Under the pieces are notes generated by a model that made no database searches, was not told where the DNA came from, and was given only the letters and a program-made list of their open reading frames with translations. DNA of 62,662 nt, from the NCBI GenBank assembly GCA_947259075.1, contig CAMYKQ010000021.1, positions 1 through 62,662 on the forward strand. Reading direction: 5' to 3'. The translations under genes were made by a program, and so were the position numbers. This DNA is from an uncultured Gammaproteobacteria bacterium (GTDB lineage: Bacteria; Pseudomonadota; Gammaproteobacteria; DRLM01). This document shows, in pieces, positions 29,969-34,095 of this stretch (the stretch's first letter is position 1; each line of letters starts with the position of its first letter).

Positions 29969-32242
29969 GTGCTCGAGGTGCTGCGTCGCATAGTTCAAGA
30001 AGTGGCCGGCGCCCGCGATCTGGAGCAGGCCCTCGCCATTATCGTCAAGCGCGTCAAGCAGGCCATGGCCGCCGACGTCTGTTCTGTTTATCTCGCCGAT
30101 TATGCCCAGCGCCGCCATGTGTTAATGGCCACTGACGGCTTGAATCCCGCCGCGGTGGGCCAAGTCTCACTCGCCATGGGCGAGGGTGTGGTGAGCGTGG
30201 TGGCCGAGGCGGCCGAGCCGCTCAATATCGGCAACGCCCCCGATCACCCGCGTTACCGCTTCGTCGCCGAGACCGGCGAAGAGTTTTACCACGGCTTTCT
30301 CGGCGTGCCCATCATCCATCATCGCAAGGTGCTGGGGGTGTTGGTGGTGCGCCAGCGCGAGCGGCGTAAATTCGCCGAGGACGAGGTGGCGTTTTTGGTG
30401 ACCATGGCGGCGCAACTGGCGGGCGCCATCGCTCACGCCGAGGCCAGCGGCGGCATCAGCCGCATGAATGGCGAAGGCGCCACGCGGCTCGACGGCAGCG
30501 TGATCGATGGCTTGGCCGGCGCGCCGGGCGTGGGTATCGGCACCGCGATGGTGATTTACCCGCCGGCGGATTTGGACGCGGTGCCCGACCGCAAAGTCAC
30601 CGATGTCGATGCCGAGATCATCGCCTTCAAAACCGCGGTGGCCACGGTGCAGGGTGAAATTCAAACCTGGGGTGAACGGCTCAGCGTGCATTTGAGCGCC
30701 GAGGAACAGGCCTTGTTCGACGCCTACGGTTTAATGCTCAGCAGCAGCAGTTTAGTGGACAAAGTGATCGCGCATATCCGCGCGGGCAACTGGGCCTCGG
30801 GCGCGCTGCGCGACACCATTCATGAGCACGCGCGGGTGTTCGAGGACATGGACGAGCCTTATTTGCGCGAGCGCGCCGAGGACATCCGCGACCTCGGCCG
30901 CCGCGTGCTGGTGTGTTTACAGAGCGCGGGGCGGCGCAAAAAGCCGCCCTATCCCGAGCGCACCGTGCTGGTGGGTGAAGAGATCACCGCCACCATGCTG
31001 GCGGAGGTGCCGCGCGAGCGTTTGGTGGCGGTGGTCTCCGCCAGCGGTTCGCGTTCCTCGCACGTGGCCATCTTGGCGCGCGCCATGGGTGTGCCGGCGC
31101 TGGTGGGCGCCCATGATCTGCCGGTGGGGCGCATGGAGGGCCGGGCGCTGATCGTCGACGGTTACCGCGGCCGCGTGTACATGAATCCCTCCGAGGCGGT
31201 GCGCGCCGAATACACCCGCCTGGCGCGTGAAGAAGCCGAACTCATGGCCGGTTTGCAGGGCTTGCGCGACCTGCCCGCCGAGACCCCCGACGGCACGCGC
31301 CTGCCGCTGTACGTCAATTCCGGTTTGATCTCCGACGTCTCGCCCTCACTGGAGAACGGCGCCGAAGGCATCGGCCTGTACCGCACCGAGTTTCCCTTCA
31401 TGATCCGCGACCGCTTCCCCGGCGAACAGGAACAGCGGCGCATTTACCGGCAAGTGCTGGAGGCCTTCGCGCCGCGGCCGGTGGTGCTGCGCACCTTGGA
31501 CGTGGGCGGCGACAAGCCGCTGTCGTATTTTCCCATCAAGGAAGACAACCCCTTCCTCGGCTGGCGCGGCATCCGCATCACCCTCGATCATCCTGAAATA
31601 TTTCTGGTGCAATTGCGCGCCATGCTGCGCGCCAGCGCCGGGCTGGACAATCTGCGGCTGTTGCTGCCCATGGTCAGTCAGCTCGCCGAGGTGGACGAGG
31701 CCAAACGGCTGGTCGAGCGGGCTTACCGTGAATTAGTCGATGCGAGCGAACAGATCGCCAAGCCCTTGCTCGGGGTGATGGTGGAAGTGCCCTCGGCGGT
31801 CTATCAAGCCGCGGCCATCGCGCAGCGGGTGGATTTTCTCTCCATCGGCAGCAATGACCTCACTCAATATTTGTTGGCGGTGGACCGCAATAACGCCCGC
31901 GTCGCGGCCTTGTACGACGCCCTCCACCCCGCCGTGCTGCAGGCCATTCAGCAAGTGGTGGATGCCGCGCACGCGCAAGGCAAGCCGGTGGGCGTGTGCG
32001 GTGAAATGGCGGGTGACCCGGTGGCGGCGGTGGCCTTGCTGGGTATGGGGGTGGACAATCTCAGCATGAGCGTGGCCAGTCTGCCGCGGGTCAAATGGGT
32101 GATCCGTAATTTCACGCAAGCGCAGGCGCGCGCGTTACTGGCGACGGTGTTGCGCTGCGACGGCGCCGACGCCGTGCGCCAGCATCTCGAACAGGCCTTG
32201 ATCGCGGCGGGTTTGGGTAGTTTAGTGCGCGCGGGTAATTAA
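29969..32242 (+). CDS. ptsP: Phosphoenolpyruvate-protein phosphotransferase PtsP (enzyme I-Ntr)
   Basis: PtsP starts the nitrogen-related phosphotransferase chain (PtsP-NPr-EIIA-Ntr), which regulates nitrogen, potassium and envelope functions. The 757-residue protein has an N-terminal GAF domain (~1-160; DVCSVYLADYAQRRHVLMA, FLGVPIIHHRKVLGVLVVRQ), an enzyme I N-domain, and the phospho-His swivel SGSRSSHVAILARAMGVPAL (~360). The C-terminal PEP-binding barrel includes LRTLDVGGDKPLSYF and FLSIGSNDLTQYLLAVDRNN. The GTG start at 29969 follows ACAGGA and aligns with E. coli PtsP. Confidence 0.97.
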   Translation: MLEVLRRIVQEVAGARDLEQALAIIVKRVKQAMAADVCSVYLADYAQRRHVLMATDGLNPAAVGQVSLAMGEGVVSVVAEAAEPLNIGNAPDHPRYRFVAETGEEFYHGFLGVPIIHHRKVLGVLVVRQRERRKFAEDEVAFLVTMAAQLAGAIAHAEASGGISRMNGEGATRLDGSVIDGLAGAPGVGIGTAMVIYPPADLDAVPDRKVTDVDAEIIAFKTAVATVQGEIQTWGERLSVHLSAEEQALFDAYGLMLSSSSLVDKVIAHIRAGNWASGALRDTIHEHARVFEDMDEPYLRERAEDIRDLGRRVLVCLQSAGRRKKPPYPERTVLVGEEITATMLAEVPRERLVAVVSASGSRSSHVAILARAMGVPALVGAHDLPVGRMEGRALIVDGYRGRVYMNPSEAVRAEYTRLAREEAELMAGLQGLRDLPAETPDGTRLPLYVNSGLISDVSPSLENGAEGIGLYRTEFPFMIRDRFPGEQEQRRIYRQVLEAFAPRPVVLRTLDVGGDKPLSYFPIKEDNPFLGWRGIRITLDHPEIFLVQLRAMLRASAGLDNLRLLLPMVSQLAEVDEAKRLVERAYRELVDASEQIAKPLLGVMVEVPSAVYQAAAIAQRVDFLSIGSNDLTQYLLAVDRNNARVAALYDALHPAVLQAIQQVVDAAHAQGKPVGVCGEMAGDPVAAVALLGMGVDNLSMSVASLPRVKWVIRNFTQAQARALLATVLRCDGADAVRQHLEQALIAAGLGSLVRAGN

Positions 32243-32304
32243 TGCCGCCGCTTGCTGAGTGTTTCCCCGGCCTTGACCCGCGGCCCATCCTCTACTAAAC
32301 CTTA

Positions 32305-32582
32305 AACGACACCCCACGGCGAGGCGCTGTGGGTAGGATGTCGTTGTTCGCATACCTTTTCATCAGCAAAAGGAGGGCGTTAAAAGCGGGCAGCCGCTAC
32401 CCTCGGCAAACCAGGGCAGTCCGGCCGCTGTGCCGGTAATGCGGGATGCTTGCGAAACTAAACCATGGGATACATCGGACCTGAGGGTCCATGCAAACAG
32501 TCTCATCCACGGGATGAGTAAATCGGAGTGCCCCCACCCGGGGTACAAAGAGGGGCCAGTGCGAGATGCCTGGCCCCTTTTT
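32305..32582 (+). ncRNA. Candidate structured non-coding RNA, class unknown
   Basis: No protein-like frame exists between ptsP and argA. The stretch is dense in perfect local hairpins: AACGACA/TGTCGTT enclosing CCCAC/GTGGG (32305-32345), CCTTTT/AAAAGG (32355-32373), AGCGG/CCGCT (32385-32398), GGACC/GGTCC (32477-32490), CTCATCC/GGATGAG (32502-32518). It ends in a canonical terminator (32551-32582). Several GGA motifs occur (GCGGGATG, ATGGGATA, ACGGGATG). I could not match it to RNase P, tmRNA, 6S, SRP, or to cobalamin (no GCCACTGG box) or c-di-GMP riboswitch consensus. The strand follows the terminator T-run. The element is read from sequence; its being a transcribed RNA is inference. Confidence 0.5.
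32551..32582 (+). terminator. Rho-independent terminator at the end of the structured intergenic element
   Basis: AGGGGCCA (32551-32558) pairs with TGGCCCCT (32571-32578) and is followed by T at 32578-32582. It could end either a free-standing RNA or read-through from ptsP, 310 nt upstream. A second hairpin without a T-run (CGGCGG-ATGAAA-CCGCCG, around 32619-32637) lies between it and the argA stop. Confidence 0.85.
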
Positions 32583-32670
32583 CATGGTGCGGGAGATGCG
32601 GACCGGACAAACCCCCGCCCGGCGGATGAAACCGCCGGATAGCAACGGCCTCCTGTTTTTTCATCATCCG

Positions 32671-33990
32671 TTACAGATTTTTAACGTAGACCTTGGAATT
32701 GCGCTGGTAGTTGTACAGCCGCCGCCGCGCCACGGGCAGGTCTTTTAGCGTGCCCGGGGTGAAGCCGCGCTCGCGGAACCAATGCGAGGTGCGGGTGGTG
32801 AGCACGAACACACGGGTGATATTCAGCAGTTGCGCCTCGGTTTCCAGTTGTTCGAGCAGGGCCGAGCCGTAACCCATGTCTTGATAATCGGGGTGCACCA
32901 CGAAGCAGGCGATCTCCGCCGCCTTTTTTTCCGGGAAGGCATAAAAGCCGGCGCAGGCGATGACGGTGCCGTCGCGTTCCACCACGGTGAAGTGCTCGAT
33001 CTCGATTTCCAAGCGTTCGCGTGAACGCGGCACGAGAATACCCGCGGCTTCCAAGGGTGCGATGAGTTCCAGCAGGCCGCCGATGTCGTCGATGCTGGCG
33101 CGGCGCGTCCCTTCGTAAATGTCGGCGGTAATCATGGTGCCGATGCCGTCGCGGGTGAACAATTCCAGCAGCAGACCGCCGTCGATGCGGCGGTCGAGCA
33201 GATGGGCGCGGCGCACGCCATTGTGGCAGGCCTGCAGCGCGCTGTGTAACTGCTGCCGCATGTCCTCGGCGAGCGCCCCCGGCTGGGCGATTACCCGTTT
33301 CGCCTCGGGCAGGGTGAGCTGGCGCAGCAACCGTTTGCGGGCGCCGGCCGCGGGCGTCTCGGTGAGCATGATGAGTTTATCCGCCTTCAGCGCCACCGCG
33401 GTGGCGGTGGCCACTTCGGCGGCGCTGAGATTGAAGATTTCCCCCGTGGGCGAATACCCCAGCGGTGACAGCAGCACGATGGCGCCGTCGTGGAGTTGCT
33501 GGCGTATCGCCTCGGCGTCGATGCGGCGCACCTCACCGGTGTGGCAGTAATCCACGCCCTCGCGTATGCCCACCGGTTTGGCGGTGACCACGTTGCCGGA
33601 GCTGACGCGGATGCGCGCGCCGGCCATGGGCGAATTGGCCAGGCCCATCGAGAGCAGGGCCTCGATCTCCACCCGCAAGGTGCCGGCGGCCTCTTTCACG
33701 CAGGCGAGGGCCGTGGCGTCGGTGACGCGCAGGCCATTGACGTAACGGATTTCGGCGCCGCGCGCGCTGAGGCGTTCCTCGATCTGCGGCCGCGCGCCAT
33801 GCACCAGCACCAGACGCACGCCCAGGCTGTTGAGCAGGGCGATGTCGTGTATCAGGCTGGCGAAACCGGCGTCGGCCACCGCCTCGCCGCCAAAGGTGAT
33901 GACGAAGGTGCGGCCGCGAAAGGCGTTGATGTATGGCGATGAATGACGAAACCAGTTAACGAACTGCTTATCTTTTTTGGCGTCTGGCAA
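32671..33990 (-). CDS. argA: Amino-acid N-acetyltransferase ArgA
   Basis: ArgA acetylates glutamate with acetyl-CoA, the first committed step of arginine synthesis and classically arginine-inhibited. The 439-residue protein has an amino-acid-kinase-like domain (FRHSSPYINAFRGRTFVITF, VLVHGARPQIEERL) and a C-terminal GNAT domain from ~295 (ACFVVHPDYQDMGYGSALLE). The frame is open further upstream, but a TTG at 33990 preceded by GGGGGAG at ideal spacing gives MPDAKKDKQFVNWFRHS, close to the E. coli length of 443. It is on the strand opposite ptsP. Confidence 0.96.
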   Translation of the reverse strand: MPDAKKDKQFVNWFRHSSPYINAFRGRTFVITFGGEAVADAGFASLIHDIALLNSLGVRLVLVHGARPQIEERLSARGAEIRYVNGLRVTDATALACVKEAAGTLRVEIEALLSMGLANSPMAGARIRVSSGNVVTAKPVGIREGVDYCHTGEVRRIDAEAIRQQLHDGAIVLLSPLGYSPTGEIFNLSAAEVATATAVALKADKLIMLTETPAAGARKRLLRQLTLPEAKRVIAQPGALAEDMRQQLHSALQACHNGVRRAHLLDRRIDGGLLLELFTRDGIGTMITADIYEGTRRASIDDIGGLLELIAPLEAAGILVPRSRERLEIEIEHFTVVERDGTVIACAGFYAFPEKKAAEIACFVVHPDYQDMGYGSALLEQLETEAQLLNITRVFVLTTRTSHWFRERGFTPGTLKDLPVARRRLYNYQRNSKVYVKNL

Positions 33991-34095
33991 CGGCGGCTCC
34001 CCCGCGATGTTGGCGAAACATTGGCTGGGATGTATACGCGTTTTACCCGGTGCTCGCAAGATCGCGCGCGGCGGCGCGGCCGAGTGGCGCCGCGT

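Follow-up and report, generated by a model that had tools for sequence, protein, structure and literature searches.

The 428-nt gap between ptsP and argA in the DNA analysed here (the window, 62.7 kb in all, taken from genome G000 of 3.1 Mb in 65 contigs) contains a segment, at about 32305-32585 on the plus strand, that behaves like a non-coding RNA gene. We consider it likely that the gap holds the gene of a non-coding RNA of about 280 nt, having its own promoter behind ptsP and an intrinsic terminator at 32582-32585, with a predicted mode of action that involves Hfq and base pairing. Comparison of the sequences shows the conserved structure, the promoter-like element, the terminator and the non-coding status of this segment; its transcription and its action are predicted.

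Results

Genomic Context and Promoter-Like Element

The ptsP gene (29969-32242, plus strand) encodes a product with PEP-utiliser and GAF domains, and argA (32671-34059, minus strand) encodes a product with amino-acid kinase and GNAT domains. The argA gene is convergent to the element, in agreement with the first-pass annotation, which had stated that no gene lies downstream on the element's strand. The nearest ArgA records beyond the genus belong to uncultured gammaproteobacterial MAGs, at 75% (the record of G003 itself) and then 69%, and the nearest named records belong to Thiohalomonas and Thiohalophilus at 62-64% identity. A second amino-acid-kinase gene, probably argB, is present on the same contig at 16988-17845 and is about 33% identical to the kinase part of ArgA.

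A promoter-like element begins directly after the ptsP stop in all three species of the genus that were compared (G000, G001, and G002). In G000 it lies at 32273-32301 on the plus strand and consists of a -35 sequence TTGACC at 32273-32278, a 17-nt spacer and a weak -10-like TAAACC at 32296-32301, with a conserved TACTA inside it at 32293-32297. The sequences CTTGACC and TACTA are identical across the three species, and TTGACA occurs at the equivalent place in two further genera. TTGACC and TACTA are kept in the three species, but the -10 is weak and a strict sigma-70 scan made no promoter call at 32273-32301. The start of the RNA is predicted at about 32305-32309. The stretch from ptsP to the promoter-like element showed no terminator, and the RNA might therefore also be produced as the 3′ end of a ptsP transcript.

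Conservation and Predicted Structure Within the Genus

The element was found in the same ptsP-argA gap of the two other species of the genus, G001 and G002, with pairwise identities among the three species of 58, 62, and 77%. From the promoter-like element through the terminator the three-way identity per 30 nt amounts to 0.33-0.73; it drops to 0.10-0.13 over the 60 nt past the terminator and climbs again at argA.

In the 5′ half, all features of which are on the plus strand, hairpin H1 (32305-32345) stands where the RNA is predicted to begin and folds at -22.4 kcal/mol (z -4.17); a 5′ hairpin is predicted in G001 too and is less clear in G002. Hairpin H2 (32355-32373) has a 6-bp stem CCTTTT/AAAAGG, the equivalent of which is UCCUU/AAGGA in G002 and is weak in G001. 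In the three species, conservation within the 5′ half is highest in the Shine-Dalgarno-like box AAGGAGG(G/A)CGTTNNAAGCGG (32370-32389), which is strictly kept as AAGGAGGrCGTTnnAAGCGG and is, apart from the terminator, the best conserved internal feature of the element. The long arm H3 (32386-32453) has the outer helix GCGGGCA/UGCUUGC (G001 and G002 retain an outer GCGG helix) and an interior that is poorly alignable among the three species. All three species have some version of the 5′ hairpin and of this long middle arm, but with sequences that have diverged too far to yield a clean consensus.

The 3′ domain, likewise on the plus strand, comprises hairpins H4 to H6 and the terminator. Hairpin H4 GGACC/GGUCC (32477-32490) is conserved in the three species with invariant pairs, and hence allows no covariation test; hairpin H5 CUCAUCC/GGAUGAG (32502-32518, 7 bp) is conserved, with a one-sided change in one pair (UA to UG) and a two-sided change in another; and hairpin H6 GUGCCCC/GGGGUAC (32528-32546, 7 bp) has three pairs changed on both sides with pairing kept in all. 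The blocks strictly kept in this part are the GGAC/GUCC and CUCAUC/GAUGrG hairpins and the terminator GGGCCAGTGCnnGATGCCTGGCCC. The terminator (32547-32585, z -6.18), an intrinsic one with a U tail and the loop UGCGAGAUGC, is near-identical in the three species; its hairpin at 32547-32582 has 13-nt arms that are complementary at 12 of 13 positions, a 10-nt loop and a TTTTT end, so that a conserved hairpin followed by U5, as expected of a Rho-independent terminator, is present. A strict pattern scan missed it because of the 10-nt loop, and a relaxed scan permitting longer loops gave six such sites on the plus strand of the window, this terminator among them. The at least five hairpins and the terminator that the first-pass annotation had placed in 32305-32582 were recovered cleanly on the plus strand as H1-H6 and the structure just described.

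On the minus strand, too, the terminator stem in G000 is flanked by a short T-rich stretch (relaxed-scan match at 32552, minus), and since this flank is present the terminator at 32547-32585 may end argA transcripts as well in G000. The flank is absent from G001 and G002.

An alignment of the gap from related genomes had been proposed as a check in the first-pass annotation, and when the 3′ domain was aligned with MAFFT, 85 of 86 pair cells were standard (98.8%) versus 30-45% for slid-partner controls, and four pairs, three of them in H6, had changed on both sides. In a letter-shuffle control of the 3′ domain with the three sequences, the covariation score was matched in 35 of 500 shuffles and the number of paired cells in 65 of 500. 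Secondary structure thus appears conserved in the 3′ domain, as judged from three sequences with a poorly alignable middle arm; the pairing and the double changes, coming from only three orthologues, are supportive of this structure and not conclusive.

The 291-nt element folds at -123 kcal/mol (z -3.98), and none of 200 dinucleotide shuffles was as stable. The full 428-nt gap gave z values of -2.75 on the plus strand and -3.24 on the minus strand, so that folding energy alone does not pick the strand. With kept G-U pairs, 85 of the 86 pair cells are standard when read on the plus strand and 77 when read on the minus strand. The U tail, the promoter-like element and the kept G-U pairs all point to the plus strand, which we therefore favour as the strand of the predicted RNA. 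The orthologues in G001 and G002 are no more stable than their shuffles (z -0.42 and -1.20, respectively). This result and the confinement of the element to one genus are what would be expected of GC-rich intergenic sequence that has decayed or arisen by chance and whose hairpins are accidental, a reading that we consider highly unlikely in view of the sharp edges of conservation, the retention of the promoter-like element and the terminator, and the compensatory changes.

A further question is whether the element is a long structured 3′ untranslated region, together with the terminator, of an rppH-ptsP transcript, acting in cis on mRNA stability or the end of transcription with no separate RNA acting in trans. 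The element directly follows ptsP on the same strand and its best conserved part is the terminator; against this, the conserved promoter-like element parts ptsP from the structured region, and the conserved box and hairpins reach up to 200 nt before the terminator, where they would be superfluous for termination alone. We regard this explanation as rather unlikely and prefer that of an RNA gene with its own promoter.

Coding Potential

Open stretches are present in the element, for example one of 70 aa at 32430-32642 on the plus strand, and the earlier statement that there is no coding frame has to be qualified to that extent; what stands of it is that none of these stretches is conserved. None of the 27 indels (counted pairwise) between the three species has a length divisible by three, and the species have no open frames in common; the element is therefore non-coding. 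A strong Shine-Dalgarno-like sequence, AAGGAGGGCGTT at 32370-32381, is kept in the three species without a conserved start codon behind it.

The conserved box could in principle serve as the ribosome binding site on an mRNA of a small protein, and the corresponding slot of G005 carries a plausible 49-aa membrane-protein frame. This explanation is extremely unlikely, as a conserved start codon is missing after the box, the open frames differ by species, the G005 frame is without a Pfam match, and the failure of all 27 indels to keep frame already largely refutes it. We also think it highly improbable that the box without a start codon is itself the working part, i.e., a mimic of a ribosome binding site that titrates the 30S subunit or CsrA in a non-canonical design; if true, this way of regulating would be peculiar to the genus.

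Known RNA Families and the CsrA Question

Searches of the element and its orthologues against Rfam, at gathering and at relaxed thresholds, returned chance matches only and no family that fits; the first-pass annotation, too, had been unable to assign the element to a known family. 6S RNA (RF00013) was rejected as an identity, the 6S RNA of this genome being at G000:C41 with 96 bits and no match being obtained at the element. A sub-threshold RsmY match at G000:C11 was also rejected, since it depends on a terminator hairpin, read on the other strand, behind an apparent PEP-CTERM gene, and no RsmZ was found elsewhere in G000 above the cut-off. All six family genomes, G000 included, have genes for both CsrA and Hfq.

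The first-pass annotation had noted recurring single-stranded GGA segments and had suggested binding to CsrA/RsmA. The segments are not, as a rule, single-stranded, and the analysis lends the suggested binding no support. Of the four cited sites, only TCGGAGTG is open in the predicted fold; ATGGGATA is open in part and GCGGGATG paired in part, and ACGGGATG lies within a perfect stem. GGA occurs 7, 10, and 9 times in G000, G001, and G002, compared with shuffle means of 5.8, 7.8, and 6.1 (p 0.33, 0.20, and 0.07, respectively). A GGA in the terminator loop is fully open in G001 and G002 and reads GAGA in G000, and no conserved set of hairpins with GGA in the loop was found in the three species. 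An RNA that sequesters CsrA/RsmA in the manner of CsrB, RsmY, or RsmZ would fit the presence of CsrA throughout the family, the 7-10 GGA per copy with the open terminator-loop GGA of two species, and the lack of RsmY and RsmZ above cut-off elsewhere in G000. Given that GGA is not significantly more frequent than in shuffles and is mostly paired or unconserved, that the terminator-loop motif is GAGA in G000, and that Rfam gives no match, such a function is in our opinion very unlikely.

Distribution Outside the Genus

The range of the element was assessed with two models, R1, a covariance model built on the 3′ domain, and R2, a sequence model for the 5′ half, and over 369 gammaproteobacterial genomes neither yielded a credible copy beyond the genus. 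Four extra weak R1 matches in other genera were rejected as terminator-driven, three of them being terminators behind a tRNA or coding genes; the fourth, in G086, falls within a non-coding stretch and owes most of its strength to a terminator-like hairpin. As judged by these models in the genomes covered, the element is confined to the genus.

The corresponding gap of G003, from the next genus, contains TTGACA together with several hairpins and a terminator; R1 scored 23.4 bits there, the level of spurious matches, and R2 gave no match. The homology of the G003 element is uncertain and is argued from position and layout alone, since the R1 score is that of spurious matches. The ptsP-argA gap of G005 (minus strand after argA) has a TTGACA promoter-like element, a terminator, and the 49-aa frame mentioned above, which is preceded by a Shine-Dalgarno sequence and has a membrane-like segment at its C-terminus (MAETTPMGG...LLGAAMA) and no Pfam match. 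G004 has only a short gap between the two genes. As argA adjoins ptsP in only a few of 80 named relatives, the gap can be compared no more widely.

Discussion

The element is most likely a real, uncatalogued small regulatory RNA that is specific to this genus and of a general kind well known among bacterial RNAs. The original proposal of a small RNA outside Rfam, either free-standing or formed at the 3′ end of ptsP, agrees with the conservation from promoter to terminator, the indels of non-coding type, the compensatory changes and the result of the Rfam searches. In the model that we favour, an RNA of about 280 nt would start at its own promoter just behind ptsP and end at 32582-32585; Hfq, which the genome encodes, would bind the U-tailed terminator hairpin, and unpaired conserved segments would base-pair in trans with target mRNAs. 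The predicted RNA probably acts by base pairing with the help of Hfq.

Among the papers searched, none joins ptsP, argA, intergenic and small RNA. What is new is a well-delimited, uncatalogued small-RNA candidate beside ptsP, a nitrogen phosphotransferase gene, in a lineage of uncultured Gammaproteobacteria, and its exact boundaries and orthologues make a targeted test easy. The general understanding of bacterial RNA regulation is unchanged, and the novelty is modest, that of a new family within a known kind.

Among known systems, 6S RNA (RF00013) is likewise structured, non-coding and of comparable size; unlike it, the element has no Rfam match. The element resembles CsrB, RsmY, and RsmZ in its free-standing, hairpin-rich layout, its terminator, some GGA motifs and the presence of CsrA, and differs from them in that GGA is neither enriched nor systematically in loops, that its positions are unconserved and that an Rfam match is lacking. 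Small RNAs derived from mRNA 3′ ends form a recognised class (PMC9438474). Compared with the Hfq-dependent small RNAs from mRNA 3′ ends or intergenic regions of Gammaproteobacteria, a class that PMC9438474 reviews, the element, which is a candidate only, is longer than most and has no Rfam relationship to catalogued members; it is like them in directly following a coding gene of the same orientation, in its promoter-like element and U-tailed intrinsic terminator, and in the presence of Hfq in the genome.
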